DNA from: a virus
Direction: 5' to 3' (one strand)
DNA: 60,722 nt
IMG/VR virus record: IMGVR_UViG_3300025889_017167
Span: 1-60,722 of that record
The notes beneath the pieces are model-generated. The model was not told where the DNA came from and did no database searches. It saw nothing but the letters and a program-made list of their open reading frames with translations. The first letter of the stretch is position 1. Each line of letters opens with the position of its first letter. The position numbers were made by a program, and so were the translations under genes. Of the stretch, positions 29,622 through 55,792 are shown one piece after another.

Positions 29622-32600
29622 TCAGATTATAATTTCTATCTTCTTCCTTAGCCCCATTCCCAATCCGGCGCAAGTGTTAAAAGCGTGGACAGCGGCGTCA
29701 ACTTGGTCATCGTGTACTTGGGCTTCGGGGAACGCCGATAGTTCGTCAATGAAGTCAGTGTTCCATGCACCACGTACTAGTTTTACGTTTCCATTGGCAA
29801 CGGCTGCAGACATTGGCTTTGCTCTAGTAAGTTTATCACCTGTGGCTCGCACACCTTTAAAGTCATAGCCTGGCAATACGTACCTGGCGTATTGGTCAAT
29901 CAAGTTTTTACCGGCGCTTCCTGGTTCTTGTTCCATTTCTATACTTATTTCGACACCATCTTCTTCTGCGGTTTGCCGAATGAACTTTTCAACCTTTTCG
30001 CCTTTTGCCCGAATTCTGCGTACATCAAGAATGTAGAATACCCCATTATCGAAGGCGGCGAGGCACCCAACGGTCCAGTCGGGGTCAGGGTACGATGGGG
30101 ATGGTTCTGTTCCTGCAAGGTCCCAGAATCTGACAATCTTAGTATCTTTGCTAAATGATGGTATTTCTGTGAAGTCAATGACTTCAAAAGATGTGCGGTC
30201 AAACATGGAGCCCAATGCAGTTGACCACCAGTCACCAAACTCTAATCGTTTGCGCTCTACGGGGTCAAGCTCTTGAAGAACTGCCCGGTACGAGTCTGGA
30301 TCAATGCCAGGGTTGTCGGTCAGCATAGATGGGATAAATATGCGACCGGTTTTCTCGCCTTCCACGAGAAAGCGCTGCCTAACCCAGTTTGGTGCCGGGT
30401 TCGTCGCCGCCCTCATACGCAGCGGCACTTGAGACAACGGCCCACTGGCAGGACGCCTGAGACGGGAGAACATGTAGCGGTAGTCTGACTCTCGGATTTC
30501 TGTAACCTCATCCATTCCGATGAATTGAAACTCCGAGTTACCAGTCCATACAACCCTACCATTGTGGCGTGTTAGGAATGTGTGGTATGGTGGTACTGTA
30601 AGACAGTATACTTTTCCCTTGTAAGGAGTGGCAACAAGCGGCTGATTGTCAATGTTTAAGCTGATTCCAGTATCCATTCCAACTTTGTAAAGCAAATAAA
30701 CATGGTATGCTGTTACACGCCGCTTTTTACCGTCTGGTGTTACTGTGGAATCTTGACGTACATCAAGTGTTGCCCTAAATCCGCAGTGTTGGGCAAGTCG
30801 CATCACATCGTCGGCTAGTTCCTTAGACACTGTTACGTAATGAGCACTTTCCGGGGTTCTCCATGTCCCATCACCCTCCACAAGAGATTGCAGTAGCACT
30901 CTTGTTAGATCAGATGTCCATGTAAAAACTTCGTCGGGTATACGTTTGTTGTGCGCTCCTTTACCAGTATTTTCGTCTAACCATTGTGCAAGTTTTTTAT
31001 TACTTGTCTGCAAGTATCTAGGATTGTCGTACACATGCCCGCCTGACCTTTCAATAATTAATTTCAAATTATCTTTCTCTTGACGTGAGCGTTTGTCGTG
31101 TAACGCAATGTGTATTCCTCCACCAGATGTACACCCTTCTGCGATGTACCACCCAATGAACGCCGCCCAATCCTCGGCAGTAAAGACTAAATCTTTACTT
31201 CTTTGATGTCCCCTACTTGATCTAGGAAATAGCGCTGCACCGGGATTTATCCCACCAGAAAACATAGCAGCCTGTGGAAATCTCGCAACTTTAGGTAGGT
31301 CTTCAGTTCTATACTTTTTTAAATCTTTTCGACGTTGTGTGGATACCCACCATGTGTGATCACCCGTAGATGCAAAAGATACGTCTGATCCTGGTCTTGG
31401 AGAATATAGTGGTTCATCAACGTCATACTCCCATACGTGCGTCACACCTTTGTAATCCCATGTTCTAGTTTCAGGGTCCATAGATGCAACTTTTTCACCA
31501 ACTTGAATTTCATCTATTCGTTTCCAGCCATTATCTGTCATAACTTCTGTATCAGGTGCGAGCGGGCCTTTGTACCGTAGATAGTCGTTGACGTTATTTA
31601 GGTAACCGAATGTTATTCTAGCGCCAGATGGGAACGTGGCAGTGTATTGGTTTGCGTTCCAATGCACATCGTCATATTGCATAATCCAGTCCCTGAACCT
31701 GTCCATCAGAGCGCCGGGAAGTGCAAGGTCGGCGTATGTTCTACGGAAGAGAATAGCTGAGTAGCCTGGCACGTCCACGTACTGTAATGCGGCCATAATT
31801 AGTGCGGAGGAGTTGTGTGTTGGGATTAAGTTTTCTGTGCAGAGGAACAGTTCATCTGGTGCGGATACTTTAAAGCAGCGCATATCGGTTGCTTCAACTC
31901 TTTCTGCTTTCTTTATGTAGCGGAAGTTGTTTGTACGACGTGTTGCGATAGATTGTGATTCAGCTTTTCTTGGAAGTTTAAACACTATTCTATTTGCAGC
32001 AAATTTTACCATCCACTTGGGACCACAGTCTTGACCGTAAAGCTTAGCACGACCTTCTCGAACATTAACCTTCATTCCAAGTGAACGAGCAAGATGCGCA
32101 ACGCCATCAACTAAACCCTTATTAGTATTAGTAAACTCCACACTAGACTTTGATACGTTACCGTCAGTATCCATCAGACCTTGCAGTAATTCTAGGCGTT
32201 GCTCTTCCGATGCCCACAAGTAGTCATTAGGGATATGCTTGTTATTTAATAGATTGTTCTCCTTTAATAAATGCGTTAGGTTCTCTAGAGTAACAACTCT
32301 ATAGTTTGGATCACCCTCTCCTGATGATCGTGGTCTGCTGCTTTTAATTGCATATGGTGTGTTTTCCCATATTTCTTTATCTACTCCACAAATTGTGCCG
32401 CTGCGAGAAAACCCATCCCCCAACCATGCTCCTAGTGTGTATGGATCAATGGGTAGGTCAATAGATGCAAGTTCTAGTGGGAGTGTTACAGGAATAGCGT
32501 GGTTTGCTCGACCTCCACGAACTGTAAGTGTGTCAACAATCTCTTGCGTTGTACGCACTGTACCGGTTGGTGGTGGTTTACGGTTTTTAATAGATTCAAC

Positions 32601-33095
32601 TTTGTTACGCTCAGCTACCGCAATTGACTTATATTGGCCTTGTGCGCCCGTAGCTCTTGATGGCCTATTCTGTCTGCGCATAGTCCTAAACGTGTCGTTT
32701 CGTTTTGTTAACGCCTCCAACTCTTTAGCGTCGTATGTTAACCATAGATGTTCGTCATTTGTAACTACTGTTGAACCGTCATCAAATGTAAACTTCCATC
32801 CAGGTACGTTTTGGATTTCAGACATCGCCAAGACAGTGTATGTTTTCCCATTTCTACCAAATACTGTGTTGCCTACTTCTATATCTCTTACTTTTTTAAA
32901 TCCTTCGGGTGTTGGTAAAACTTCATCTAAGCTTATCAGCTTACCTCCACCGGCCGCTCCACCGAATAGTACTTCTTGTGCTTCAGTTTTTAGGAATACT
33001 TTTTGCGTGATGCTTGGTTCCTCGACCCAGTAGTCTGATCGTCGGGGTTCTAAGTATTGTCGTATTTTTTCCCAATCCTGGGTGTCTGTAGACAT
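29622..33095 (-). CDS. terL: Terminase large subunit with two inteins
   Basis: The 1157-residue precursor gives about 438 residues after both inteins are removed. Extein motifs in order: Walker A GGAAGGGK/SSAL (intein 1 sits between K52 and S429), FRRTYADL, YLRYKG/SEFQFIGMDEVTE with the Walker B Asp-Glu (intein 2 before SEF), the SRLRRP arginine segment, and the nuclease residues FWDLAG, EQEPGSAGK and VHDDQVDA. The motor cuts and pumps DNA into the prohead. It faces away from the portal gene, with a weak GGAG before the ATG. No small terminase was identified; the HNH genes upstream may assist. Confidence 0.96.
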   Translation of the reverse strand: MSTDTQDWEKIRQYLEPRRSDYWVEEPSITQKVFLKTEAQEVLFGGAAGGGKLISLDEVLPTPEGFKKVRDIEVGNTVFGRNGKTYTVLAMSEIQNVPGWKFTFDDGSTVVTNDEHLWLTYDAKELEALTKRNDTFRTMRRQNRPSRATGAQGQYKSIAVAERNKVESIKNRKPPPTGTVRTTQEIVDTLTVRGGRANHAIPVTLPLELASIDLPIDPYTLGAWLGDGFSRSGTICGVDKEIWENTPYAIKSSRPRSSGEGDPNYRVVTLENLTHLLKENNLLNNKHIPNDYLWASEEQRLELLQGLMDTDGNVSKSSVEFTNTNKGLVDGVAHLARSLGMKVNVREGRAKLYGQDCGPKWMVKFAANRIVFKLPRKAESQSIATRRTNNFRYIKKAERVEATDMRCFKVSAPDELFLCTENLIPTHNSSALIMAALQYVDVPGYSAILFRRTYADLALPGALMDRFRDWIMQYDDVHWNANQYTATFPSGARITFGYLNNVNDYLRYKGPLAPDTEVMTDNGWKRIDEIQVGEKVASMDPETRTWDYKGVTHVWEYDVDEPLYSPRPGSDVSFASTGDHTWWVSTQRRKDLKKYRTEDLPKVARFPQAAMFSGGINPGAALFPRSSRGHQRSKDLVFTAEDWAAFIGWYIAEGCTSGGGIHIALHDKRSRQEKDNLKLIIERSGGHVYDNPRYLQTSNKKLAQWLDENTGKGAHNKRIPDEVFTWTSDLTRVLLQSLVEGDGTWRTPESAHYVTVSKELADDVMRLAQHCGFRATLDVRQDSTVTPDGKKRRVTAYHVYLLYKVGMDTGISLNIDNQPLVATPYKGKVYCLTVPPYHTFLTRHNGRVVWTGNSEFQFIGMDEVTEIRESDYRYMFSRLRRPASGPLSQVPLRMRAATNPAPNWVRQRFLVEGEKTGRIFIPSMLTDNPGIDPDSYRAVLQELDPVERKRLEFGDWWSTALGSMFDRTSFEVIDFTEIPSFSKDTKIVRFWDLAGTEPSPSYPDPDWTVGCLAAFDNGVFYILDVRRIRAKGEKVEKFIRQTAEEDGVEISIEMEQEPGSAGKNLIDQYARYVLPGYDFKGVRATGDKLTRAKPMSAAVANGNVKLVRGAWNTDFIDELSAFPEAQVHDDQVDAAVHAFNTCAGLGMGLRKKIEIII
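30537..31565 (-). other. Intein 2 of terminase, class 3-type, LAGLIDADG
   Basis: Precursor residues 511-853 (343 aa). It starts with Pro511 (PLAPDTEVMTDNGW) if the extein is to read YKGSEFQFIG, as in other terminases. Trp582 lies two after His580, Cys831 is in block F (CLTVPP), and the end is Thr851-Gly-Asn853 (Gly replaces the usual penultimate His). Endonuclease motifs: IGWYIAEGCTS and LLQSLVEGDGTW. The +1 residue is Ser. Confidence 0.9.
31812..32939 (-). other. Intein 1 of terminase, class 3-type, LAGLIDADG
   Basis: Precursor residues 53-428 (376 aa). It starts with Leu53 (LISLDEVLPTPEGF), which cannot act as an N-terminal nucleophile. Class 3 signature: Trp118 two after His116, Cys407 in block F (CFKVSAP), and Thr426-His-Asn428. 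Removal rebuilds the Walker A GGGKSSAL. Endonuclease motifs: LGAWLGDGFS and LLQGLMDTDGNV. The +1 residue is Ser. Confidence 0.92.
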
Positions 33096-33101
33096 ATGTG
33101 C

Positions 33102-33130
33102 TTGTCTCCGTGGGGATTTGGCGGTAAAGT
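33102..33130 (+). promoter_or_regulatory. Leaderless promoter of the virion module
   Basis: TTGTCT (33102-33107), a 17-bp spacer and TAAAGT (33125-33130); the ATG at 33137 is six bases on. It faces away from terL. A TATACT at 33130-33135 is closer to the ATG and less well placed for plus-strand use. Confidence 0.6.
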
Positions 33131-33136
33131 ATACTT

Positions 33137-33295
33137 ATGAAATATTTTTTCACACGTTCTTCAGCGGCTAATGCCCTTATGGTGATGGCCATTCTTTTGA
33201 TTGGCTCTGGTATTAGTATACTAAGTTTAGGGTGGGGTTTGGCAAGTGCTGGCGCTGCGTGCGGAATTTACGGATATTTGTTAGGGGCTGAATAA
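33137..33295 (+). CDS. Small membrane protein, 52 aa
   Basis: This short plus-strand frame reads MKYFFTRSSAANALMVMAIL... and has two hydrophobic segments (about 13-30 and 34-49) separated by SLGWG. It is coupled to the portal gene (TAATG). It resembles the 69-aa membrane protein at 13069-13278 in layout. The role is unknown. Confidence 0.6.
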   Translation: MKYFFTRSSAANALMVMAILLIGSGISILSLGWGLASAGAACGIYGYLLGAE

Positions 33296-34932
33296 TGGCT
33301 TGGAATTCTGGGGTGAACAAAGCGATAGATTCTCAGTTGGGGGCGGGGGAGAAGGCTGCTAAGATTTCGGTTGGCGCTCCTATTTCTTATAGCCCGTCAG
33401 TGCAAGTGAATAGCCAAATGAATAAAGGCTATTCTGATGGCTGGGATATAACGAAGGCTTATAAGGAAGCTATGGCAAAGGTGACGTGGGTTTACCGTGC
33501 TATTAATGTGATTGCTTCTAATCAAGCCAGTTTGCCTATGATTTTACGTAAGGATAACAGTCCGTTTGGTGAGATTGTTAACGATAATCCTTTGTTGAAG
33601 ATTTTTAATAATACCACAAATCTTGGTGAGAACGCTTGGGCGTTTAGGTCTAGGCTTAGTTCTCAGCTGCTGCTTAGCAGTCGAGGTGTTTTTGTTGAGG
33701 TTGTACGAGATCGTGTCGGTACCCCTGTTGCGCTACATTTATTGCCCCCTCAGAACACTGCACCCATTCCTGATGAAAAGAAGTTTGTGAAAGGGTTTGA
33801 GGTTAAGATTACAGCGTATCAGTCTAAGATTTTGAAGCCAGAGGATGTTATTTGGATTCGTCAGCCGCATCCTTTGGACCCGTATTTGTCTATGACGCCT
33901 ATGGAGTCTGCGGGGATGGCGATTGAAGTTGAGACGTTGGCAAAAATTTATAATCGTAACTTCTTGTTAAACGATGGCCGCCCGGGTGGGTTGTTGGTTC
34001 TTCGTAGCGAGATTGATGAGACGGACAAGGAAGAGTTGCGCAGTAGGTTCCGTGGTGATCTGAGCCGTACCGGCGCTGTGGGTGTGATTTCGTCTGACGA
34101 CGGTGCAGATTTTGTGGACACTGCTGCGAACCCACGGGATGCTGCCTATCAGGCGATGCGTACTATTTCTAAGGAAGAGATTCTTGCTGCGTTTGGTGTG
34201 CCTGAGTCAGTTATTGGTAACGCATCTGGTCGAACGTTTGCTAACGCTGCCGAGGAGGGCAGGGTGTTTTGGATGGAGACTATGGGTCCCCATTTGCAGT
34301 TAATTGCTCGCAGTTTTGATCGTATTGATGATACATATTTTGTGGATTTTGATACTAGTGGCGTGCCTATTATGATTTTGGCGAAGCAGGAGCGTGAGCG
34401 ACATAATTTGACTGAGTTCCAGCAGGGGCTTATCTCTGTTAATGAGTATCGTGAATCGTCTGCTCGTAAGAAAGTTGTTTCAGAGCTTGCTGATTCGCTT
34501 TTGTCTAATCCTAACTTGACTCCGGTTGGTAATACGGAGAAGCCTATGGTTAGCGAAGAACAGGGGGCTGTGCCTCCTGGTGCCCCACCAATGCCTGGGG
34601 CTCCGCCGATGGAAGGTGCCCTACCGGCTGACGGCGCACCCCCGATGACACCTGAGCAAGCGGCTCGTTTTGCGGCAGGCGCAGCAGTGCCTCCCCAGAT
34701 TGAAGCTGGGGTTTCTTTGCAGCAGCAAGCCACAGCAGCGCTGCAAGAGCAGGTTACCGAATTTAGCCCAGAGGAGGGTGCGTTTGTACCATTTGGGTCT
34801 GTTCAAGGGACACAGCAAATTGAGTTGCCTGCATCTGAAGTTCCTAGCGAGCTAGAAGAGTTGGAGGAGGATGAGAAGAGCCTCCCTTTAGATTTGAAGA
34901 TAAAGGAGCTGGAGAAGCTTCTGCTAAAGTAG
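33295..34932 (+). CDS. Portal protein, HK97 type
   Basis: This 545-residue protein has the HK97 portal pattern: VTWVYRAINVIASNQASLPMIL, LLLSSRGVFVEVVRD, EDVIWIRQPHPLDPYLSMTPMESA, NRNFLLNDGRPGGLLVL, EILAAFGVPESVIGNASGRTFANAAE. The C-terminal 110 residues are a Pro/Ala/Gly-rich tail (PPGAPPMPGAPPMEG) and an acidic end. It forms the dodecameric DNA gate. The reading frame of the next gene is open across the last 19 codons of this one. Confidence 0.94.
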   Translation: MAWNSGVNKAIDSQLGAGEKAAKISVGAPISYSPSVQVNSQMNKGYSDGWDITKAYKEAMAKVTWVYRAINVIASNQASLPMILRKDNSPFGEIVNDNPLLKIFNNTTNLGENAWAFRSRLSSQLLLSSRGVFVEVVRDRVGTPVALHLLPPQNTAPIPDEKKFVKGFEVKITAYQSKILKPEDVIWIRQPHPLDPYLSMTPMESAGMAIEVETLAKIYNRNFLLNDGRPGGLLVLRSEIDETDKEELRSRFRGDLSRTGAVGVISSDDGADFVDTAANPRDAAYQAMRTISKEEILAAFGVPESVIGNASGRTFANAAEEGRVFWMETMGPHLQLIARSFDRIDDTYFVDFDTSGVPIMILAKQERERHNLTEFQQGLISVNEYRESSARKKVVSELADSLLSNPNLTPVGNTEKPMVSEEQGAVPPGAPPMPGAPPMEGALPADGAPPMTPEQAARFAAGAAVPPQIEAGVSLQQQATAALQEQVTEFSPEEGAFVPFGSVQGTQQIELPASEVPSELEELEEDEKSLPLDLKIKELEKLLLK

Positions 34933-34967
34933 ACTTTTCTTCTTGGGACGAAAAAACTCTGTATAGA

Positions 34968-35711
34968 GTGAACTCTTTTGAAGATAGGGTGTCTGCTGCA
35001 CTTGATAAAATTTTTGATGAGCAGGAGCGTTTAGCGCTTGCCGCTGTTAACTCGGATGTGTCGAAGTCCATTCTAGCGGCTGGCGTCTCTGCTGGAGTTG
35101 AGAATATTATCACTTCTGCTGATTTGAGACAAGTTTCTGAGAAGCTTCTTCCATTGATGCAAGATATTTATCGCAAAGCTGTTGAGGATACAGTCGAAGA
35201 GGGCTATGGCTCTGAAGTTAGTGAGCCTACCGAAACAGCGGCTGGGTCTCAACAGATTGTGGTTGTAAATAATTTCAATGATACTACGCAAGAAGAAATT
35301 AAGTCGGCGTTGACTACTGCGGCTGTTTTGACCGACGGCGATGGCGGTGATGTGGATGTTGCTTTGAAGTTAGCTTTAGCCTACTCATTGATAAAGTCTA
35401 TTTTCAATAAACTGCGGGCGTCTCGTAAAAATCTTATTTTAGAGACTGCAGTGTATGGTTCCTATAATCAGGGACTTTTCGATGCCGCTGTAGCCAATGA
35501 GGTGGCGACAGCCCGCACCCTAATGAAGCAGTGGGTGTCCATGTTGGACGGTAAGGTTAGGGACAGCCATAGGGCTCTCCACGGGGATAAAGTGCAGGTA
35601 GGTGCTCCTTTTTTTGTAAATGGTGTTGCTATTAGGTTCCCCAAGGACCCCCTTGCCCCTCCCAATTTAACTATTGGCTGCAGGTGCGTGCTTAAGTTTT
35701 CAATAAACTAA
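34968..35711 (+). CDS. MuF-like minor head protein
   Basis: From a GTG at 34968 it has 247 residues. The C-terminus has WVSMLDGKVRDSHRALHGDKVQVGAPFFVNGVAIRFPKDPLAPPNLTIGCRCVL, the Mu gpF/SPP1 gp7 hallmark. It is packaged inside the head and helps assembly. No ribosome-binding site precedes the GTG, while the same frame is open back to 34875 and reads plausibly (VDFSSWDEKTLYR) with no ATG, GTG or TTG. A -1 frameshift from the portal gene is a possible source. Confidence 0.85.
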   Translation: MNSFEDRVSAALDKIFDEQERLALAAVNSDVSKSILAAGVSAGVENIITSADLRQVSEKLLPLMQDIYRKAVEDTVEEGYGSEVSEPTETAAGSQQIVVVNNFNDTTQEEIKSALTTAAVLTDGDGGDVDVALKLALAYSLIKSIFNKLRASRKNLILETAVYGSYNQGLFDAAVANEVATARTLMKQWVSMLDGKVRDSHRALHGDKVQVGAPFFVNGVAIRFPKDPLAPPNLTIGCRCVLKFSIN

Positions 35712-35787
35712 ATTATATAAAGTCATATTTGAAGCCTGCCATTGTAGTGTAAGCTATTTTGGTAGGTCTAGTCTTTTTAGGAGAGTT

Positions 35788-37338
35788 ATGAGCGTCATTG
35801 AAGTTACAGATGTAGCGTCTGACACAAGCTTTAAAGCTATTTCCGGTCAGATTGGCATTGATAAAGCTCAAGGAATTGTTGAGGCTTTTGTTTCTGGTAT
35901 CGGCAACAAAGATTCAGTTGGCGATATTGTAGTTTCTGGGGCGTTTAACGGCTCACTTAAGCGTCGCAAGCCTCGTGTGGTGTGGGGGCATGATTGGAAT
36001 CAGCCTATTGGTAAGGTTTTAGAAATTTATGAAGTCTCAAAGTCTGATCCTCGTCTTCCCGCAAAAATGAAAGATGCTGGAATTGGTGGGTTATACGCTA
36101 AGGTTCAGTTCAATTTGAATACCGAAAGAGGCCGAGAAGCCTTTGCCAATGTGGCCTTTTATGGCAATGATCAAGAGTGGTCGATTGGGTATAAAACGAT
36201 TGTTGCAGATTTTGACGCTGTATGGCAAGCGAACATGTTGAAAGAAGTAGAGCTTTACGAGATTTCACCGGTACTTCATGGCGCAAATCAGCTGACTGGA
36301 ACAATCTCTGTCAAAGACGATGAAAACGGTCGCACATCCAAGGGTTGGCACACTGGAGATGACGATAAGGATGGTCCTATGAATAGTGTGGACGCAATGT
36401 CAGAGCGAGTTGGCCAGGCTCTATCGCAGGCGCTTCGTAAGCCTGTTCAGATCTTGGAAATTGATGGCGATAATGTTGTTTTCCAAACGGGAGAAGATAT
36501 GGTGTGGTCCGCTACCATGTCAATGGAAAACGGACAAATGATGGTTGGCCGTCCCACTAGGGTAAAGCCAACGACGACATATACTCCTATGGGGGATGAC
36601 GCTCCTCCTTCTATGATGATCAAAGACCCTGACGCAAAGGGGATTCTTGAAGACGAGTATGCCTTTGCTACTGCTAAGATTGCTGCGGCGTGGTCGATTA
36701 CTTTAGGCTGCACTGGGTATCACACCCACGGTGGTGGATTTGTTCCTTGCGATACTCATGAACAATATCTTGCCGCAATCAAAAAGTTTGAAGAAAACGG
36801 CGGGGTAAATCGGGGTCCTGCCCATGACGACATTTTAAATGTTGATGTTGATGAAACTAAGGGTGCAGGTACTGGCTGTTCATGTGACACCGAGGAAAAG
36901 GGTTACGGGCACATACCAAAAGAAAAGCCAGAGTACCTTAAAGACCCAATGGCCCTTCTACTCATGGCCTACAACGAGATGTTGAAGCTACGTGGGGCAT
37001 CGGACCTTCGTGACGCAACACTAGCCCTCATCAGCGAAGTTGAGGGGTTTCTCACCGAAGCGCCGATGGCTCGCCCAGGAGAGCAGGGCGAAAAGACTGA
37101 AACTGGTCTGGTCGTCCACGTAAAGTGCGGAGAGGCTGCCACCTTGGATCTTGGTCGTGCTTTGGGTAATCTTCCGGTTGTGGCTCGGAAAAGTGAATCC
37201 GGTGTTGATATTCACTTTACGGATGAGATGAAGGAAGAGTGGTTGATGGAGAAAGTTGCCATCGCCTTGTCGGAGCTTAAGTTCGACGTTGATATTGCAG
37301 TAACTAGACCGATTGACACCGGTTCGGGTGTTCAGTAA
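35788..37338 (+). CDS. Prohead protease (HK97 family) with C-terminal extension
   Basis: The first about 190 residues are an HK97-type S78 protease: GIVEAFVSGIGNKDSVGDIVVSGAF, RKPRVVWGHDWNQPIGKV (catalytic His in GHDW), and EVELYEISPVLHGAN (the YEISPV strand). The catalytic Ser is expected in the region after YGNDQEWSIGY. The remaining 320 residues hold a short Cys/His module (LGCTGYHTHGGGFVPCDTHEQYL, about 305-330), a CSCD segment and a helical C-terminus. It cleaves capsid and scaffold during maturation. Good GGAG before the ATG. Confidence 0.88.
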   Translation: MSVIEVTDVASDTSFKAISGQIGIDKAQGIVEAFVSGIGNKDSVGDIVVSGAFNGSLKRRKPRVVWGHDWNQPIGKVLEIYEVSKSDPRLPAKMKDAGIGGLYAKVQFNLNTERGREAFANVAFYGNDQEWSIGYKTIVADFDAVWQANMLKEVELYEISPVLHGANQLTGTISVKDDENGRTSKGWHTGDDDKDGPMNSVDAMSERVGQALSQALRKPVQILEIDGDNVVFQTGEDMVWSATMSMENGQMMVGRPTRVKPTTTYTPMGDDAPPSMMIKDPDAKGILEDEYAFATAKIAAAWSITLGCTGYHTHGGGFVPCDTHEQYLAAIKKFEENGGVNRGPAHDDILNVDVDETKGAGTGCSCDTEEKGYGHIPKEKPEYLKDPMALLLMAYNEMLKLRGASDLRDATLALISEVEGFLTEAPMARPGEQGEKTETGLVVHVKCGEAATLDLGRALGNLPVVARKSESGVDIHFTDEMKEEWLMEKVAIALSELKFDVDIAVTRPIDTGSGVQ

Positions 37339-37367
37339 GCTATTCCATAGAATATACAGGAGTAACA

Positions 37368-39299: not shown

Positions 39300-39311
39300 C
39301 GAGGAGGCGTT

Positions 39312-48015: not shown

Positions 48016-48030
48016 GGGAAGGGTGCAGTC

Positions 48031-48279
48031 ATGAGGCGTTACGTGTTTTTTGATAAGTTTGATAAGACTCAGAGGGGGATTCTAACCTTAGAGGATAACG
48101 GAGATTTTTCTGCTGAGCCAGCGGATATGTTGCCGTATTTTGCTGGTATGGTGCGCTGGCTGGGCCCTGATGATAAGCCAACTTCTATATTTGATTTTGT
48201 TAAAAGTGGGTTGTATAATATGGATGTGGTTCGTCTTGCTGATGACGGAGAAATGTATTACATTGGGGAGGGCGACTGA
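48031..48279 (+). CDS. Hypothetical protein, 82 aa
   Basis: GGGGAAGGG precedes the ATG. This small acidic protein (MRRYVFFDKFDKTQRGILTLEDNGDF ... GEMYYIGEGD) has no recognised family. It follows the giant gene by 15 bases and is coupled to the next gene (TGATG), so it is likely part of the head operon. Confidence 0.75.
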   Translation: MRRYVFFDKFDKTQRGILTLEDNGDFSAEPADMLPYFAGMVRWLGPDDKPTSIFDFVKSGLYNMDVVRLADDGEMYYIGEGD

Positions 48280-48890
48280 TGTACAAGTATTATGCGCTTG
48301 CTGATGGAAACATGATAGTCGCTCGGGTTAGCGATTCGGGGGACTCCGCAGTTTTTTTCGCTAAGCGGGGTTGGCAGGACGATGTGGATGCCTTTGAGGA
48401 AACCGTAGAAGTACGGAAAGCCCGTCAAGAATCGGCTCCGTATGACGAGGCTGTTCTTAAGAATGCCTTTTCTGATTTGGTTGAGATTAGTTCAGCCCTA
48501 TTTGATAGTGCCGTAGGACAAATCAACACTTTCAATCAAGAGTACGATAACAATCAAGCACAGCTTGAGGGTATGACTGATCATGATATGGGGTTTTTTA
48601 TTACTGAGTTTCCTGCACGCCGCCCACGTTTAGCTTCCTATGAGGATATTAACAAGCTGTGGACTGCTATGTTTGTGGTTTCTACGGGAGGGGGCGATGA
48701 TGAAGGTGTTCGCACACCTGAGCAAACTCGTGCCGATCTAAAGGCGTTGTATTCTTTGTTGAAGAACGCTGAGAACACAAACGACGGTTCCACTATTCGT
48801 AATTTGGTTCGTTCTTTGGGTGATTTTGATACAGGTATTGTACCGGACCGTGGTTTGGTTGAGCCTGTTCAAAGGAGGGGTAATGGCTAA
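48279..48890 (+). CDS. Hypothetical protein, 203 aa
   Basis: I do not recognise this protein. The N-terminus (YYALADGNMIVARVSDSGDSAVFFAKRGW) looks like a small beta domain; the rest is helical and acidic. It overlaps the next gene by 8 bases. A head-accessory role is inferred from position. Confidence 0.72.
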   Translation: MYKYYALADGNMIVARVSDSGDSAVFFAKRGWQDDVDAFEETVEVRKARQESAPYDEAVLKNAFSDLVEISSALFDSAVGQINTFNQEYDNNQAQLEGMTDHDMGFFITEFPARRPRLASYEDINKLWTAMFVVSTGGGDDEGVRTPEQTRADLKALYSLLKNAENTNDGSTIRNLVRSLGDFDTGIVPDRGLVEPVQRRGNG

Positions 48891-50388
48891 GGACCCATTG
48901 GAAGATCAGACTGTTCCGACTAAAGAGATGGCAGAAGAGTTATCTCGTATTTTGGGTTGTTCGGGGGCGCATAAAATTGGCGATGATGCGTGGGGCCCGT
49001 GTGAGTCTTCATCAGATTTAAAGAGGCTTATTCGTATGGGCAATCCTGCGTTTCGTGAATGGAAGAAACGTCAGGGTAAAGGTGGGTTTGAGGACTTGTT
49101 GCGCTTGAAGGCCGTTGGTGCCCGCAAAGGAATGTTTGATACGCAGGCTGAAGCTGAAATGGCGGCTGTGCGATTGGGTTGCTTTGGGGCACATCAGGCG
49201 GGGCAGGGGCGGTGGGCTCCTTGTGGTACTCCAGAAGAGCATAATGCTGTTCATGCTTCAGAGCCAAATGGTAGAAGGGTTTTACGGGCAGCTAAGCCTG
49301 CCCGTCGTGTTATTACTAATCCTAAGGTGTGGGAAAACTTACGGGAGCGTGGGCCGCTTCGCATAGAGACGCTACCTGGGGGTGGTTTAGTTTCTGGTAA
49401 GGCTGCCGCATCGGATTCGTTTAAGCCCACGGCTGGTATGGTTGAGGAAGCAAAGCGGGCTTTGGATTGGCGTAAAGAGTTTGGCCGTGGGGGTACTATG
49501 GTTGGTATTGCACGGGCAAGGGACATAGCTAATGGCCGCAATTTGCCGTATGCTACGGTGAAGCGTATGAAGGCGTTTTTTGATAGGCATCAGAGTGATT
49601 CTAAAGCGGAGGGGTATCGGCCGGGGGAGAAGGGTTTTCCTTCTAATGGTCGGATTGCTTGGGCGCTGTGGGGCGGTGATGCTGGGTATACGTGGGCTAA
49701 GGCTATTGTTCGCCGGGTGGAGGGTAAAGAGAAGTCTATTTTTGATTCGATTGAAGAGAAGCGTTTCTATACTCGTAAGCGTAGGGATGAGTACGCTAAG
49801 CGTGGATGGGCGCTTCCTGATGGGTCGTTTCCGATTAGGGATGTGGGGGATTTGCGAAACGCAATTCAGGCTTACGGGTTAGGTAAGAATCGGGCTGCAG
49901 CTAAGCGTCATATTATGAAGCGGGCGAGGGCGTTGGGGCGGACCGATTTGATTCCTGATAATTGGAAGCAGAGAGAGAAAGCTGCCCGTCGAGGCGGTGA
50001 TCCTAAAACTCCAGCTAAGCCGTCTGAGCGTATATCGGGGTCTAGTAGAAATAAGCCAGGGTCAGCGTCCGGGAAACGAAACAATATTGAGTTATCTGCG
50101 GCGGTGAAGAACTCCTTAAAAGATAAGGTTAAGACACACAATGAGAAAATGCGGAGTAGCGATAAGCCCGACCGGACTGTTACGCTGGGGCGTTTAACGG
50201 CTGTTTGGCGTAGGGGTGCTGGCGCTTTTTCGCAAACGCACCGCCCGAACATGTCTAGGCAACAGTGGGCGATGGGCAGGGTGAATGCTTTTCTAAAATT
50301 GGTGTCTAGTGGAAAACCTTCAAACCCGAAGTACACGACCGATAACGATTTGTTGCCCGAGAAGCATCCACGTTATTCTAAGGGTTGA
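48883..50388 (+). CDS. Modular head-associated protein with two Cys/His modules
   Basis: The ATG at 48883 has AAAGGAGGGG upstream, giving 501 residues. Two copies of the LGCxGxH...PC module lie at about 25-47 and 97-120. A conserved phage domain follows (GMVEEAKRALDWRKEFGRGGTMVGIARARDIANG, FFDRHQSD, GFPSNGRIAWALWGGDAGYTWA). After it comes the GWALPDGSFPIRDVGDLRNAIQAYG...HIMKRARALGRTDLIPDNW unit shared with the 37368-39299 protein, and a basic C-terminal domain. The domains are known in phage capsid-operon proteins, but no activity is established. Confidence 0.78.
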   Translation: MAKDPLEDQTVPTKEMAEELSRILGCSGAHKIGDDAWGPCESSSDLKRLIRMGNPAFREWKKRQGKGGFEDLLRLKAVGARKGMFDTQAEAEMAAVRLGCFGAHQAGQGRWAPCGTPEEHNAVHASEPNGRRVLRAAKPARRVITNPKVWENLRERGPLRIETLPGGGLVSGKAAASDSFKPTAGMVEEAKRALDWRKEFGRGGTMVGIARARDIANGRNLPYATVKRMKAFFDRHQSDSKAEGYRPGEKGFPSNGRIAWALWGGDAGYTWAKAIVRRVEGKEKSIFDSIEEKRFYTRKRRDEYAKRGWALPDGSFPIRDVGDLRNAIQAYGLGKNRAAAKRHIMKRARALGRTDLIPDNWKQREKAARRGGDPKTPAKPSERISGSSRNKPGSASGKRNNIELSAAVKNSLKDKVKTHNEKMRSSDKPDRTVTLGRLTAVWRRGAGAFSQTHRPNMSRQQWAMGRVNAFLKLVSSGKPSNPKYTTDNDLLPEKHPRYSKG

Positions 50389-50467
50389 GCGGTTTTGCTA
50401 GTAGTGTGATATACGTTATTTTTGGTTTTTGCGGCGCTGCAAGAGATTATTGTTAAAGTTCCCGTGG

Positions 50468-50496
50468 TTGCCTTTACTTTGGTGCTAGCATAATAG
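50468..50496 (+). promoter_or_regulatory. Candidate capsid promoter in a 187-bp gap
   Basis: TTGCCT (50468-50473), a 17-bp spacer and TAATAG (50491-50496). The gap 50389-50575 also has TTGACT at 50497 and an AT-rich stretch before AGGAGG, so other starts are possible. A dedicated promoter fits the strong terminator after the capsid gene. Confidence 0.4.
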
Positions 50497-50575
50497 TTGA
50501 CTGGTGTCACTGCTTTTTGGGTCGCCTGTCATTAAACAGTAAACATGTTAAACTCAAACCTTAGGAGGAATGAAC

Positions 50576-51973
50576 ATGAGTTTTGATGAGAGTCGTCTCA
50601 ATGAGCTGAAGGGTGCTTTGTCTGAGAAGATGGCAGAGCAGCGTCAGATTGCTGATTCGATGCAGATTGAGGGGACTACCCTTATTGCTGACGCAGAGAA
50701 GAAGGCTGCGTTCCAGAAGAATATGGTTGACATCAAGGAAATTAAGGGTCTCATTGAGGGTCTTGGTGAGCTTGAGGAAGTTCAGAAGTGGGCTTCGGAG
50801 CCGAATCAGAAGAGCGTGGCTGCTGCGGCAGATGCGGCTGCTGATCGTCGTCCGCAGGCTTCGACTGTGGGTGGGGCCTTTGTGGATTCGCCTGAGTTCA
50901 AGGATTTGCAGGGTGGCCGGAATGGTGTCACTATGCGTGCCCCGTTTGAGGTGAAGAGCCTTCACACGAAGGATATTCATCAAGGTACTCCTGGTGGGAC
51001 CGGTTTTTCAGTCCCTGATATGTTTGGTGGAGTTGAGCGTGACGGTATTGTGCAGCTTCCGCAGCGTAGCCGCCGGGTTCGGGATCTTTTCCCTGCCCGC
51101 ACGACTAATGCTGCGGTTGTTGAGTACTTCCGTCAGACCGGCTATGTGCTTAGCACCTACGGTACCGCTCGTGCCATCTCCACCAACGCTGTTGGTGCGC
51201 AGAGCGACGGCTGGCGTACCGGGATGGCGTCTGCGGCTTCGGCTTACATGGTACCTGAGCGTAATGCGAGTAATGAGTTTGGCATGAAGCCACAGTCAAC
51301 CCTTTCCTTTGTTGGCCGTCAGGCTCCGGTGCGCACTATTGCTCACTGGGAAGCTGCTCACCGTAATGTGTTGTCGGATGAGCCTCAGCTTCGTGGGATC
51401 ATTGACAATGAGCTTCTGTATGGCCTTCGCCTTATGGAAGATCAGCAGATCCTTAACGGCGCTGGTTCGGGCGACCAGCTTGACGGTATCCTCAACGACA
51501 CCGACATTCAGGCTTACACTCACCCGAACTTCTCACCGGGCTACAGTGCGACTGCTTCGGCAAACACAAGCACTGACACTAAGGCTGACGCCGTCCGTCG
51601 TGCGCTTACTCTCGCCTACCTGGCCAACTATGAGCCTACTGGCGTGATTGTGAACCCGGTTGACTGGGAAGACATTGAGCTGACGAAGAACAGCCAGGGC
51701 ACCTACCTCCTTGCGATGTCGGTTGCTGGTGGCGCTGAGTCACGGGTGTGGCGGGTTCCCGTCATCGACACCCCTGCGATTGCTCAGGGCACGGCTCTGG
51801 TTGGTGCCTTCGGTACCGGCGCTCAGCTGTACGACCGTGAGGCTGCTTCGATCCGTATTTCGGAGAACCACGAAGACTTCTTCACTCGGAACGCTATTGT
51901 TGTTCTGGCTGAAGAGCGCCTTGCCCTTGCGGTGAAGCGCCCCGAGTCGTTCGTTGCAATTACCTTTAGCTGA
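50576..51973 (+). CDS. Major capsid protein, HK97 fold
   Basis: The ATG at 50576 is preferred, with AGGAGG seven bases upstream; the ATG at 50570 is too close. The 465-residue protein has a helical N-terminal delta-like region (about 1-110) and then the HK97 core: GGTGFSVPDMFGGVERDGIVQLPQRSRRVRDLFPA, QAPVRTIAHWEAAHRNVLSDEPQLRGIIDNELLYGLRLMEDQQILNGAGSGDQLDGIL, VIVNPVDWEDIELTKNSQGTYL, VWRVPVIDTPAI and GAQLYDREAASIRISENHEDFFTRNAIVVLAEERLALAVKRPESF. The second half uses more C-ending codons than its neighbours, as expected for very high expression. Confidence 0.96.
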   Translation: MSFDESRLNELKGALSEKMAEQRQIADSMQIEGTTLIADAEKKAAFQKNMVDIKEIKGLIEGLGELEEVQKWASEPNQKSVAAAADAAADRRPQASTVGGAFVDSPEFKDLQGGRNGVTMRAPFEVKSLHTKDIHQGTPGGTGFSVPDMFGGVERDGIVQLPQRSRRVRDLFPARTTNAAVVEYFRQTGYVLSTYGTARAISTNAVGAQSDGWRTGMASAASAYMVPERNASNEFGMKPQSTLSFVGRQAPVRTIAHWEAAHRNVLSDEPQLRGIIDNELLYGLRLMEDQQILNGAGSGDQLDGILNDTDIQAYTHPNFSPGYSATASANTSTDTKADAVRRALTLAYLANYEPTGVIVNPVDWEDIELTKNSQGTYLLAMSVAGGAESRVWRVPVIDTPAIAQGTALVGAFGTGAQLYDREAASIRISENHEDFFTRNAIVVLAEERLALAVKRPESFVAITFS

Positions 51974-52008
51974 TTCTAGCTAATCGTAGTCTAACGGCTT
52001 AGAGTTTT

Positions 52009-52036
52009 GCCCCCGGGTTTCGGCCCGGGGGCTTTC
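52009..52036 (+). terminator. Strong terminator after the capsid gene
   Basis: A perfect 9-bp stem GCCCCCGGG/CCCGGGGGC with a TTTCGG loop is followed by TTTCTCT. Confidence 0.85.
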
Positions 52037-52053
52037 TCTATTAGTCGTGGCTT

Positions 52054-52062
52054 TGCTATAAT
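52054..52062 (+). promoter_or_regulatory. Extended -10 leaderless promoter
   Basis: TTGCTATAAT has the TGn extension and a perfect TATAAT (52057-52062). The ATG at 52068 follows after AGGGT. The same TATAATAGGGTATG string precedes the gene at 55999. Confidence 0.7.
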
Positions 52063-52067
52063 AGGGT

Positions 52068-52808
52068 ATGCCAATATTTAATTTTGACGATGAAGATTCT
52101 GATGTTCCGATCCCTACGTGGACGCCCGATCAGATACAGAGCTTAGAGTCAATTAATCCTTTCTATGTACCTGGCATCGTTAATCTGTTAAAGTTTCTAG
52201 TTCACGAAAAAGGAACTTTGCTGGACAGCGTGCTTGATTTAACTTTTGTTTTACATTCTGTTGCCAACATGGACAATAGCGACTACACACTTAGCAGGAC
52301 AGACGGTCTTGTTGCTATTGCGAGTGAGTTTTGTTTGATTGACTGTCTGTATGACGGATCGGTTTTAGTAGGAATTGAGATGTTAGATAACGCTGTACTG
52401 TTTTTGGCTTTGAACGATCAAGCAAATTTTGCTTTGGAAGCGGCAGTTTGCTTAAAAGACAACACCTCCTCAATCATGCAAACATCGGCTGTGCTACCGT
52501 CACTTTCGCTGTTTGGGCATTGGGAAGAATTTGCGTCAACGGTACTCGCTTGCCTATTGACAAATGCTTCCACATCTAGTAAAATGTCTACACTGTTTAA
52601 AGTGATCAAACATCTAGACATTGGAGTGAACTCAGAAATAGAGTTTGTTGACCACATAAGAAAGCTGTGTGCGGTTAATCTGCTGTCCTTAAACATATCC
52701 GAAAGTAGTGATGCTGTAGTAAGCATTAATCACCAACCCGCAGGGCTGTTTCTTCTATTTTCGAACCAAGAAAAACTGGCTAGACGTTTAGCGGAGTTGT
52801 CCATCTGA
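52068..52808 (+). CDS. Hypothetical protein, 246 aa
   Basis: I do not recognise this protein. It has an acidic N-terminus (MPIFNFDDEDSDVPIPTW) and then an all-helical body rich in Leu, Ser and Ala (GIVNLLKFLVHEKGTLLDSVLDLTFVL, ALEAAVCLKD, HWEEFASTVLACLL). Its own leaderless promoter after the capsid terminator suggests it is regulated separately from the virion genes. Confidence 0.72.
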   Translation: MPIFNFDDEDSDVPIPTWTPDQIQSLESINPFYVPGIVNLLKFLVHEKGTLLDSVLDLTFVLHSVANMDNSDYTLSRTDGLVAIASEFCLIDCLYDGSVLVGIEMLDNAVLFLALNDQANFALEAAVCLKDNTSSIMQTSAVLPSLSLFGHWEEFASTVLACLLTNASTSSKMSTLFKVIKHLDIGVNSEIEFVDHIRKLCAVNLLSLNISESSDAVVSINHQPAGLFLLFSNQEKLARRLAELSI

Positions 52809-52924
52809 TAACTTTTTTGGACAACTGGTCTTTTCACAATAACTTGACTACTTACCGTTAGCACTGCCCGTTAGAATACAAGAACCATCATTTTTACGAA
52901 GACATATATTTAGGAGGATTCGCC

Positions 52925-55792
52925 GTGTCTTTTCTCATCTCAGACGATCATGCCAACTCTTACGCCGACAAGATGCCACCTTGGGGATTCAACGGTTTAG
53001 GGTACGTTACTTATAAACGGACGTATGCACGCCCGATTTTTTTGAATAACTCCGATGTTATTGAACGGACAGAGGAGTGGCATGAGACTGTGCAGCGGGT
53101 CGTTAACGGGGCCCAAGACATTGGCGCACAACTGTCTGAGGATGAGGCTATTCGTCTTTATGATTATCTTTTCAATTTGAAGGGCAGCGTTGCTGGACGT
53201 ATGCTGTGGCAGCTGGGCACTCCGAACAACAAGCGTTTGGGTGGGGATAGTTTGGTGAATTGCCTTGGGGGTGAAACTGAGGTTGTTACTCGGGAGGGCA
53301 TTAAGCGAATTGATGACTTAGCTGCTATTGGTTATGCTACGGTTATGACTGATTATGGTAAGTGGGTTAATGCTGATATCCGAAGCTTCGGTGAGCAGCG
53401 GCTTGCTGAAATCGTGCTTCGTCGTGGGAAGCAGGTAAAAACTGTTCGTGCTACCGCTGAGCATCGGTGGATTGTTCGTGGTAAGAACGGTCGGGAAGAG
53501 TTCTTTACTGAGTCTTTGCGACCGGGAATGAAGCTTGTTAGCATAAAAGGGCAAGGCACACATACTGCTGATATGAGCAACGATGGTGTTCGTGCTGGTC
53601 TAGTTTACGGTGACGGTACGGTTTATAACACGGGCGCTCGTGCGTTTGTTGCTAATGCTGATCTTGCAGAGCTTGAACATTTTTTCCTTGATTACAAGTC
53701 AAGTGAAAGTGAGCACGGTGCGACTTTCTACGGCCTTCCACGGTCTTATAAAGCTTCCCCTGATTACAATGAGTTCCGTGGTTATTTGTACGGTTGGCTC
53801 GCAGGGTATTTTGCTGCTGACGGGTATGCTCGTGATGGGAAGGGCGCTCAGTTGAATAGCACCAATATTAACTCGTTGCGTGCCGCCAAGGACGTTGCGA
53901 CTATTATTGGTGTTGCTACTGGCCCTATTTACGAACAAAATCGTATCAGCAATCTTACCGGCAAGGAGAGCACCATTTATACGTTGCCGCTCCATATTGA
54001 AGATCCAGAGTTTTTCCTTTTGTCGAAGCATCGTGGAGATTTTGTGGGGCGTGCCAGCGTTGCTGATTGGAAGGTTGAGTCCGTTGGGGAGTATGGCGCT
54101 CCTGAGCCTGTTTTCTGTGCGGTGGTCCCTGAGACACACACGTTCGCTTTGTCCGATAATCTACTAACTGGGAATTGTTGGTTTGTGGATGTGCAGAAGC
54201 CTACCGACTTTTCGTGGGCAGTTGAAAGGCTCATGTTGGGCGGGGGGGTTGGTTTCTCGTGTGATAAACCTGAGCGTCTTGGTGTGGTGCGGTCTGCGTG
54301 GGTGGATCGTGTAGATGCTGATGATTCTGATTTCATTGTGCCTGATACCCGTGAGGGGTGGGGTGAAGTCATTCGTAAGGTGTTTGAGTGCTACTTGGGT
54401 GATGATGACAATCCACGTAAGATGACTTATGCTACTCATTTGATCCGCCCTGCTGGTGTTCCTATTAAGACTTTTGGTGGCACTGCTTCTGGTCCCGATA
54501 TTCTTATTTCTGGTATTGAGAAGATTTGCAAGGTACTTGATGGGGCTATCGGCCGTACGATGACTTCTGTTGAGGTTCTTGACTGTATGAATATTATTGG
54601 GTCAATTGTTGTCGCTGGTAATGTTCGTCGTTCGGCGGAGATTGCTGTTGGTAGTCTGGATGATGAAGAGTATCTGATGGCGAAGCGGTGGGACCTTGGC
54701 AATATTCCAATTGAGCGGGCGATGTCGAATAATACTGTTTTTGTCAATGAGTACCAGATGCAGAATATGCCTCAGCTTGTTTGGGAAGGCTATGAGGGAA
54801 ACGGGGAGCCTTACGGGTTTTTCAATCTTGAGGCTTCACGTAAGTTTGGGCGCATGGGTGAGGTTCGTCCCGATTACAGTATTGTGGGTGTGAATCCTTG
54901 TGCGGAGATTCCGTTGGCTAACCGTGAGTCTTGTAATCTGTCGGAGATTTTTTTGCCGATGATTGATTCTCGGGAGGAACTGGTTGACCTTACGCTGCTG
55001 CTTTATAAGGTTCAGAAGGCAACAGCAGCTTTGTCGTATCTTGATCCTGCGTCGGATAAGATCACTTCTAAGAACATGCGGCTGGGTCTCGGGGTTACCG
55101 GGGTTGCTCAGGCGTTGGATAAGGTTGAGTGGCTGGATCAGGCGTATGTGAAGTTGCGTGAGTTTGATATTGATTGGTCGGCTGAGCGAGGTTGGCCTGA
55201 GTCTATTCGCCTTACCACGATTAAGCCGTCTGGTACGCTCAGCTTGCTGCCTGGTGTGACTCCTGGGGTGCATCCTGGTTTCTCTCAGTATTTTGTGAAG
55301 CGGATGCGTATGGCTGCCACGGATGTGCTTGTTAACTATTGCCGCAGTAAAGGTTTCCACGTTGAGCCTTTGCGTAACTTTGATGGTTCTGAGGATGACC
55401 GTACCGTGGTGGTGGAGTTCCCTTGTGCGTTCCCTGAGGGTACTGTGCTTGCTGAGAATATGTCGGCGGTAGAGCAGATGGATTTGGTGCGGAAGCTGCA
55501 AAGGTTGTGGGCTGATAACTCGATTTCGGTAACCGTGTACTACCGTAAGGAAGAGCTTGAGGAGATTAAGGCGTATCTTGCGGAGTACTGGTCTGAGATG
55601 AAGTCGGTTTCGTTCCTTTTGCACAGCGAGCATGGTTTTGATCAGGCTCCGATGGGCGAGCTTACGCTTGAGGAGTATGTGGCCATGTTGGCGGCTACGA
55701 CTCCTCTGGGGGAGAAGTTGTCAGGGTCAACGATGATGTCGGACGACGAGTTTGACGCTGAATGCTCTACGGGAAGTTGTCCCGTGAGATGA
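52925..55792 (+). CDS. nrdJ: B12-dependent (class II) ribonucleotide reductase with intein
   Basis: GTG start with TTTAGGAGG upstream. The 955-residue precursor gives a 650-residue enzyme. Extein motifs: GRMLWQLGTPNNKRLGGDSLVN/CWFVD (the intein splits before the active-site Cys), GGGVGFSC, NPCAEIPLANRESCNLSE (NPC-x-E radical site), TTIKPSGTLSLLPGVTPGVHP, and the C-terminal ECSTGSCPV redox Cys pair. It best fits the monomeric RTPR-like class II type that uses adenosylcobalamin. It makes dNTPs from NTPs. It sits among structural genes, between capsid and connector. Confidence 0.93.
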   Translation: MSFLISDDHANSYADKMPPWGFNGLGYVTYKRTYARPIFLNNSDVIERTEEWHETVQRVVNGAQDIGAQLSEDEAIRLYDYLFNLKGSVAGRMLWQLGTPNNKRLGGDSLVNCLGGETEVVTREGIKRIDDLAAIGYATVMTDYGKWVNADIRSFGEQRLAEIVLRRGKQVKTVRATAEHRWIVRGKNGREEFFTESLRPGMKLVSIKGQGTHTADMSNDGVRAGLVYGDGTVYNTGARAFVANADLAELEHFFLDYKSSESEHGATFYGLPRSYKASPDYNEFRGYLYGWLAGYFAADGYARDGKGAQLNSTNINSLRAAKDVATIIGVATGPIYEQNRISNLTGKESTIYTLPLHIEDPEFFLLSKHRGDFVGRASVADWKVESVGEYGAPEPVFCAVVPETHTFALSDNLLTGNCWFVDVQKPTDFSWAVERLMLGGGVGFSCDKPERLGVVRSAWVDRVDADDSDFIVPDTREGWGEVIRKVFECYLGDDDNPRKMTYATHLIRPAGVPIKTFGGTASGPDILISGIEKICKVLDGAIGRTMTSVEVLDCMNIIGSIVVAGNVRRSAEIAVGSLDDEEYLMAKRWDLGNIPIERAMSNNTVFVNEYQMQNMPQLVWEGYEGNGEPYGFFNLEASRKFGRMGEVRPDYSIVGVNPCAEIPLANRESCNLSEIFLPMIDSREELVDLTLLLYKVQKATAALSYLDPASDKITSKNMRLGLGVTGVAQALDKVEWLDQAYVKLREFDIDWSAERGWPESIRLTTIKPSGTLSLLPGVTPGVHPGFSQYFVKRMRMAATDVLVNYCRSKGFHVEPLRNFDGSEDDRTVVVEFPCAFPEGTVLAENMSAVEQMDLVRKLQRLWADNSISVTVYYRKEELEEIKAYLAEYWSEMKSVSFLLHSEHGFDQAPMGELTLEEYVAMLAATTPLGEKLSGSTMMSDDEFDAECSTGSCPVR
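53261..54175 (+). other. Intein in ribonucleotide reductase with WCT signature and Cys1
   Basis: Precursor residues 113-417 (305 aa). It starts Cys113 (CLGGETEVVTREGI) and ends LLTGN, with +1 Cys. Like the three other inteins it has Trp182 two after His180, Cys398 in block F (CAVVPE) and Thr415-Gly-Asn417. It therefore carries both a class 1 nucleophile and the class 3 triad. Endonuclease motifs: RAGLVYGDGTVY and GWLAGYFAADGYA. It interrupts the reductase at its active-site cysteine. Confidence 0.93.

Follow-up and report, generated by a model that had tools for sequence, protein, structure and literature searches.

The whole stretch of DNA analysed here, referred to below as the window, is the 60,722-base virus record IMGVR_UViG_3300025889_017167 from IMG/VR, which contains four inteins in three genes of central packaging and replication functions. 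The intein of greatest interest, Ter2 (30537-31565, minus strand; 343 residues, Pro1, +1 Ser; context YLRYKG/.../SEFQFIGMDE), is one of two that interrupt the terminase large subunit (TerL) gene (29622-33095, minus strand; Pfam Terminase_6C, E 1.4e-17), which forms an open frame of 1157 residues. The other terminase intein, Ter1 (31812-32939, minus strand; 376 residues, Leu1, +1 Ser), follows the Walker A sequence GGGK and ends in THN/S. The Hel intein (3343-4413, minus strand; 357 residues, Ala1, Cys2, +1 Ser) follows the Walker A sequence GLGK and also ends in THN/S; its host is an SNF2/HepA-like helicase gene (2065-5022, minus strand) with matches to Pfam SNF2-rel_dom (E 3.7e-29), Helicase_C and HARP. 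We note that the Cys2 that follows Ala1 in this intein places a thiol beside the junction. The fourth intein (53261-54175, plus strand; 305 residues, Cys1, +1 Cys; context LTGN/C) lies in a class II (B12-dependent) ribonucleotide reductase (RNR) gene (52925-55792, plus strand), which matches the RTPR model TIGR02505 at 300 bits (E 2.5e-89), short of the curated threshold of 340, and Pfam RNR-II_ins_dom. The host frames of all four inteins are open throughout.

The four inteins are real, with boundaries identical to those of the original prediction, which was made from the sequence alone. As it had also reported, each contains a Trp in block B, a Cys in block F and a Thr in block G (together WCT), and the block B His is likewise present in all four. 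In Ter2, residue 1 is Pro by direct reading of its codon (CCG, 31563-31565), and the alignment of same-site inteins identifies Trp72 (block B:12, 31350-31352), Cys321 (block F:4, 30603-30605), which is the predicted first nucleophile, and Thr341 (block G:5, 30543-30545), all on the minus strand. Residue 1 is non-nucleophilic in Hel (Ala), Ter1 (Leu) and Ter2 (Pro), and the argument that Leu1 and Pro1 are unable to act as N-terminal nucleophiles holds; the RNR intein begins with Cys and in this respect departs from class 3. Two LAGLIDADG-type motifs with acidic residues were located by eye in each intein: LLGCLLGDG and LLQGLMDTDG in Hel, TLGAWLGDG and LLQGLMDTDG in Ter1, FIGWYIAEG and LLQSLVEGDG in Ter2, and RAGLVYGDG and WLAGYFAADG in RNR. 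Pfam LAGLIDADG_3 scores just Hel and Ter1, and a putative endonuclease is assigned by fold in Ter2 and by motif alone in RNR.

The original prediction described the four inteins as members of one class 3 lineage that align over their first 14 residues. That stretch can be aligned, but the identities amount to only 3-6 of 14. The proposed relationship is strong for Hel and Ter1 (E 1.5e-28), while the matches of Ter2 with Ter1 (E 1e-7) and with Hel (E 1e-5) are confined to the endonuclease half. The RNR intein matches Ter2 at both ends (E 0.004 each), and no pairwise match of RNR with Hel or Ter1 was found under E 0.08. In a splicing-domain tree of 69 inteins, built after deletion of residue 1 and of the three WCT columns, Hel and Ter1 fall within a canonical class 3 clade of 25 rows (support 100/99), as does the AAA intein, a fifth class 3 intein (Arg1) found in an AAA/Toprim gene of sister phages (L191, 1-2122; L117, 1-1482). 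Ter2 and its four same-site relatives (100/99) lie within a separate 37-row family (99/97), for which the 80 best of at least 350 matches were sampled, and the RNR intein groups with six other RNR inteins (98/91). The same groups are present in a quick full-length tree, from which the Cantare intein, whose endonuclease is mostly missing, was omitted. Hel and Ter1 are thus class 3 inteins, as had been proposed, and together with the AAA intein they are new members of an already known kind. Ter2 and RNR are placed in distant class 1 clades by the free trees, the outcome that the original prediction had named as one that would refute it, although clade tests, considered below, do not reject the alternatives.

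Profile scores were also compared. With the canonical class 3 profile Hel scores 382 bits and Ter1 423 bits, both being members of its training set. Ter2 scores 288 bits with a Ter2-family profile from which it had been excluded versus 65 bits with the class 3 profile, and RNR scores 372 bits with its own-family profile, in whose training it was included, versus 12 bits. With all five Ter2-site inteins excluded from training, their scores are 274-288 bits with the family profile versus 50-65 bits with class 3, or 115-127 versus 19-27 bits when the splicing blocks alone are considered. Discrete characters separate the groups as well. The penultimate His is present in 25/25 class 3 rows and 0/37 of the Ter2 family, and the Thr of TxxH, which is generally missing from class 3 inteins (PMC6195587), is present in 1/25 and 36/37, respectively. 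An R-x(1-3)-G loop close to the C-terminus, scored without requiring the final GN or GQ, occurs in 37/37 members of the Ter2 family but in none of the class 3 (0/25), RNR-family (0/5) or other (0/2) rows. Ter2 and its four same-site relatives each have this loop, a penultimate Gly, the TxxH Thr and the F:4 Cys (5/5 for each character). In our view the trees and profiles favour, without proving, an assignment of the four inteins to three families of separate origin.

Several other observations bear on the proposal that a single lineage spread within this genome. Ter1 matches the class 3 structure 6rix (E 5.7e-11), and its nearest relatives (65-66% identity) are found in other phages, at this TerL site, and not elsewhere in this genome, which points to homing between phages or to inheritance. 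Sequence searches of the PDB with Ter2 alone returned just an endonuclease match and weak matches to RecA inteins, and those with the RNR intein alone returned nothing convincing. The four different first residues, which had been regarded as noteworthy, are ordinary for class 3: across the 25 canonical rows residue 1 is Ala in 13, Leu in five, Met in three, Glu in two, and Arg and Pro in one each.

The Ter2 site is also occupied in four related terminase loci (L205, L206, L207 and L208), the inteins of which share 68-72% identity with that of the window. Residue 1 is Pro in the window and L205 (both CCG) and Cys in L206 (TGC), L207 (TGC) and L208 (TGT), and His70, Trp72, Cys321 and Thr341 are invariant in all five. 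By the codons, a replacement of Cys by Pro requires two base changes. Two further contigs that are 99% identical to the window Ter2 also start with Pro. An assembly error at codon 1 was considered and is unlikely, as CCG is found in the window, in the two sister contigs and in L205. The terminase frames are open in all five loci, with that of L207 running off its contig. The nonsynonymous divergence (dN) among the Ter2-site inteins is 0.19-0.29 and the synonymous divergence (dS; NG86) was not computable, which we read as saturation; the protein therefore appears to be constrained, and the Pro1 forms would not be fresh dead alleles. A scan of genome contigs for the Ter2-site set gave no confirmed example.

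More distant relatives indicate the probable polarity of these states. The intein of L210, the host gene of which was not identified, and the terminase intein of GMA6 (36-39% identity) have Cys1, Ile or Val at B:12 and Ser at G:5. Among the 32 other Ter2-family members in the tree, Cys1 is found in 31 and Cys F:4 in 30, and the commonest residue at B:12 is Met (17/32); Trp is found at B:12 in none of them, for which reason it appears to be derived at the Ter2 site. A wider set of 72 distinct family sequences comprises 68 with Cys1, three with Pro1 and one with Ala and an ambiguous start. The terminase tree places the window with L207, apart from L205, L206 and L208 (100/100); the latter three also group together in one intein tree (84/86). 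Each of the two terminase groups would then contain one Pro1 intein and at least one Cys1 intein, and residue 1 requires a minimum of two changes on this intein tree, which comprises the five and six outgroups that have Cys1.

The identity of residue G:5 appears to be linked to that of residue 1. In a set of 71 representatives (clustering at 85% identity gave 73, from which L267, a possible Ala1 intein with an ambiguous start, and L281, the end of which did not map, were removed), Thr G:5 accompanies Pro1 in 3/3 and Cys1 in 9/68 (Fisher p 0.0038, with rows that are not independent). A Ter2-family intein in a portal gene identified by Pfam (L283, 988-1992) has Pro1, Met B:12, Cys F:4 and Thr G:5, and a second portal-gene intein (L212) has Cys1 and Ser G:5; L254, whose flanks resemble those of L283, has Cys1, and no portal match was found in its cut frame. 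These data suggest the hypothesis that Thr G:5 is the permissive step and that Trp is optional. Thr G:5 has been proposed to be a member of a Cys-His-Thr triad (PMC7664689).

The interpretation that we favour, with a probability of about three in four, is that Ter2 derives from a class 1 family which gained WCT while Cys1 was retained and which then lost Cys1, so that the class 3 layout would have originated twice. The order of steps at this site would be the F:4 Cys, followed by Trp B:12 and Thr G:5, followed by the loss of Cys1, which may have been replaced by Pro twice. Cys1 would be lost after WCT was complete, and therefore no dead intermediate is needed. We infer the accompanying chemistry from the residues present. 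In Hel and Ter1 the block F Cys would attack the N-terminal junction, the N-extein would be transferred to Ser+1 and the terminal Asn would cyclise. In Ter2, Cys321, helped by His70 and Thr341, would attack the Gly-Pro junction, and the branched intermediate at block F would then hand over to Ser+1.

The structural model of Ter2 relates it to a solved intein of unusual type. The AlphaFold2 model (mean predicted local distance difference test, pLDDT, 93.4) is that of an intein with an inserted endonuclease domain. The solved mini-intein nearest to it is AceL NrdHF (Z 18.2, root-mean-square deviation 2.0 over 149 residues), compared with Z of 15.6 and less for other mini-inteins and 13.1 and less for canonical class 3 inteins. 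When the whole model is used, twelve full-length intein-endonuclease entries (Z 20.4-27.6) outrank AceL because they have the endonuclease domain in common with Ter2. The N part of AceL (85 residues) obtains 50.3 bits from the Ter2-family profile versus 8.2 bits from that of canonical class 3, and 41-48 versus 6-11 bits with 12-member profile subsamples. A 49-row Ter2-family profile finds AceL with E 1.5e-12, and AceL is missing from the matches, up to E 1, of a six-member class 3 profile that includes Hel and Ter1. AceL NrdHF has Ala1 and Met-Cys-Thr in place of WCT and is without the two block F/G histidines, and a class 3 mechanism has been shown for it (PMC7891396). These oddities fit the Ter2 family, in which Met is the usual B:12 residue and the penultimate His is absent. 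Addition of AceL to the set described above changes the Fisher p value to 0.0007, again with rows that are not independent. If AceL belongs to the Ter2 family, then splicing through Cys F:4 is already established for one member that lacks Cys1.

Extending this interpretation, we think it fairly probable that the class 3 mechanism arose at least twice, and in the Ter2/AceL family repeatedly and stepwise from class 1, with an ancestral block F Cys, a working second nucleophile completed before the loss of Cys1 by Thr G:5, whether or not Trp B:12 was also present, and Cys1 then becoming free to be lost. With similar assurance, the losses would comprise those at the terminase site (perhaps two, both to Pro), in the L283 portal gene (Pro1) and in AceL NrdHF (Ala1). 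The Cys1 orthologs at the Ter2 site would then be living double-nucleophile intermediates.

A number of results weigh against the derivation of Ter2 from a class 1 family. When class 3 and the five Ter2-site inteins are held together the cost is 8.5 log-likelihood units for the 138 splicing columns (approximately unbiased, AU, test p 0.313) and 33.4 units at full length (p 0.116), and neither arrangement is rejected. The same is true when class 3 is joined by just the two Pro1 rows (p 0.187), when all WCT rows form one clade (p 0.139) and when Pro1 has a single origin (p 0.216). The bootstrap of the splicing-domain tree had not settled, and this tree pairs L207 with L208 (91/74) and L205 with L206 (91/75), unlike the other intein tree. 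The polarity of residue 1 depends on outgroups of at most 39% identity, and the link to AceL depends on the 85-residue stretch and on the fold. The AU results would accommodate a Ter2-site set descended from canonical class 3, with Cys1 regained in L206-L208 and the features that resemble class 1 regained as well. We consider this unlikely: Cys1, the TxxH Thr, the penultimate Gly and the R-x-G loop would all have to be regained jointly, and likelihood, branch supports and profile scores prefer the Cys1 family.

A single class 3 lineage that moved among the genes of this genome and gave rise to all four inteins would agree with the presence of WCT and LAGLIDADG-type motifs in each of them, with the relationship of Hel to Ter1 and with the clade of all WCT rows that the data do not reject. 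The free tree, the profiles and the discrete characters nevertheless divide them among three families, the closest kin of Ter1 are at the same site elsewhere and RNR has Cys1, and we regard this explanation as very improbable. It is also conceivable that Ter2, given a Pro1 incapable of acting as a nucleophile and a chemistry predicted here from sequence, splices in the manner of class 2, with the +1 residue attacking directly, or splices poorly. Known class 2 inteins are KlbA orthologs with Cys+1 and Asp F:4 (PMC4031507), whereas Ter2 has Ser+1 and Cys F:4 in a terminase host that is not KlbA and so does not have the class 2 characters; its position in an open, constrained terminase frame also speaks against this explanation. 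Both possibilities appear quite unlikely to us. The derivation of Ter2 from a Cys1 class 1 family is, in our view, the interpretation most consistent with these data.

Every RNR-family intein examined (5/5) retains Cys1 as well as Trp, Cys and Thr, at 23-30% identity to that of the window; by annotation the hosts of its relatives are phage ribonucleoside-triphosphate reductases or anaerobic/class III reductases, with one record unannotated. These five Cys1 inteins with WCT do not form one side of a branch in the splicing-domain tree (two changes), and they do so in the full-length tree (SH-aLRT 91). We give even odds that WCT is incidental in this family and that splicing is of the plain class 1 type through Cys1. 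The presence of Cys1 throughout the family is consistent with this, as are two other sampled RNR inteins, in which Cys F:4 and Thr G:5 occur alongside a B:12 Phe; the invariance of W, C and T at such identities, in contrast, suggests that they are used. With both Cys1 and WCT retained, either start may be usable. Tori and Perler reportedly accepted some Cys1 or Ser1 WCT inteins as class 3 in 2011. PMC7891396 defines class 3 inteins by a residue 1 other than Cys together with a Cys at F:4, and under this definition the RNR intein is not class 3.

Intein-free alleles are directly observed in relatives at the helicase, both TerL and RNR sites, and their uninterrupted exteins establish the exact ends of the inteins. 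The Ter1 site (TerL site 1) is uninterrupted in 76 of 80 related loci, with two occupied and two that cover one side only, and the Ter2 site (TerL site 2) is uninterrupted in 80/80; these are the best 80 of 277 relatives, in a list biased toward uninterrupted matches. The RNR site is uninterrupted in 39 of 44 related loci (three occupied, two without coverage), and the helicase site is intein-free in 7/9 and occupied in L189 and L191. A 109.7-kb contig (IMGVR 3300018424_007835) carries the AAA, Ter1, Ter2 and RNR inteins as well as Hel, which is truncated at the end of the contig, contig 3300017956_005040 carries the Hel and AAA inteins, and the helicase, terminase and reductase genes are all intein-free in a 102.6-kb contig (3300004369_000643). 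The AAA/Toprim primase-helicase-like gene of the window (7805-9643, minus strand) has an empty intein site between 8528 and 8527. Its flanks are identical to those of L191 at 99.2% of 376 bases upstream and 98.8% of 726 bases downstream; the 15 bases directly upstream of the insertion site fail to align. L207 has a full Ter1-site intein (Ala1) together with its Cys1 Ter2, and L208 has a full Cys1 Ter2 and, at the Ter1 site, a class 3 mini-intein without an endonuclease domain (terminase frame around 2498-3526). Contig G008 has an RNR intein and no terminase on the contig, and is uninformative on Ter1 and Ter2. In 44 related records, which were picked partly for carrying inteins so that the counts are not prevalences, the class 3 profile matches 11, nine of which hold class 3 inteins (the match is weak and within a Ter2-type intein in G001 and G002), and the Ter2-site profile matches 11, seven at full length. 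The inteins are gained or lost site by site among close relatives, as expected of homing elements.

Other features of the window may be described briefly. In the helicase gene and the neighbouring histone-deacetylase-domain gene (2065-6202) nearly all third codon positions are A or C (A 0.36, C 0.61, G 0.02 and T 0.00 in the helicase C-extein). The helicase intein shares this bias, which weakens over the following genes, and the same pattern is present in the helicase of the related phages L184, L185, L188 and L192. The odd composition at 2-6 kb raised the question of an assembly chimera, which is unsupported: 3300018424_007835 joins the helicase, AAA, terminase and reductase genes, and 3300004369_000643 likewise has helicase, terminase and reductase on one contig. 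At the left end (1-853) three plus-strand frames are open from the end of the window; the region is a short degenerate repeat, a minus-strand reading of which would, by eye, give pentapeptide repeats. A protein with a long Thr-rich stretch and without a Pfam match, perhaps a surface protein, is encoded at 11756-13072.

The interest of this system centres on Ter2 and its same-site relatives. Class 3 inteins are known, as the original prediction stated: 1,701 were counted in 2020, of which 82.5% have LAGLIDADG motifs (PMC7891396). A review describes them as monophyletic, from a single originating event (PMC4031507). Cys1 is held to have been lost first, with repair mutations following (PMC3196547), and a structural study, in which WCT grafted onto a class 1 intein did not give proper splicing, argued against a direct transition from class 1 to class 3 (PMC7664689). 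The Ter2 set offers natural same-site orthologs with full WCT and either Cys1 or Pro1, and the order of steps is therefore testable by a few point mutants. In the portions of the open-access literature consulted, no description of same-site Cys1 and Pro1 intein orthologs was found.

Comparison with known systems places each intein in context. The mycobacterial DnaB class 3 inteins (6rix and 6bs8) are the best solved match of Ter1 and of the six-member class 3 profile in which it is included alongside Hel; they are mini-inteins in DnaB, whereas Hel and Ter1 carry endonuclease domains and lie in an SNF2 helicase and a terminase. The Deinococcus radiodurans Snf2 class 3 intein (PMC3196547) has an Snf2 host as does Hel, a likeness of intein class and host protein. 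The mycobacteriophage inteins TerL1-a to TerL1-e (PMC5050341) include one at the terminase P-loop Lys/Thr (a) and one at Walker B (e); TerL1-c, -d and -e are within the class 3 tree of that study, TerL1-b and -c cut intein-free targets, and a terminase with two inteins, as in the window, is not named for mycobacteriophages in the available sections of that paper. The NrdJ intein of Thermobifida phage P318 (MK240575; 29% identity) resembles the RNR intein in having Cys1 and WCT, followed by the Cys-Trp of the reductase, and differs in its C-terminal Gln in place of Asn. The AceL NrdHF split intein (PDB entry 6zgq; PMC7891396) shares with Ter2 a non-nucleophilic residue 1, the F:4 Cys, the G:5 Thr and the lack of a penultimate His. 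Unlike Ter2 it is split, has Ala1 and Met at B:12, is found in nrdHF and is without an inserted LAGLIDADG domain. In PMC7891396 it is regarded as a class 3 intein of unusual type; its placement in the Ter2 family is our reading, by which an intein hitherto considered an oddity would gain a family. Finally, the terminase inteins of Gordonia phage GMA6 (KR063280) and Brevibacterium phage Cantare (NC_071014), with 36% and 27% identity to Ter2, occupy the same terminase region (YKFQ/.../SAEYQFIG, compared with RYKG/.../SEFQFIG in Ter2), equivalent within about 1-2 residues. They have the F:4 Cys, R-x-G loop and penultimate Gly of Ter2 but differ from it in Cys1, in Val or Met at B:12 and in Ser at G:5, which is the class 1 layout.

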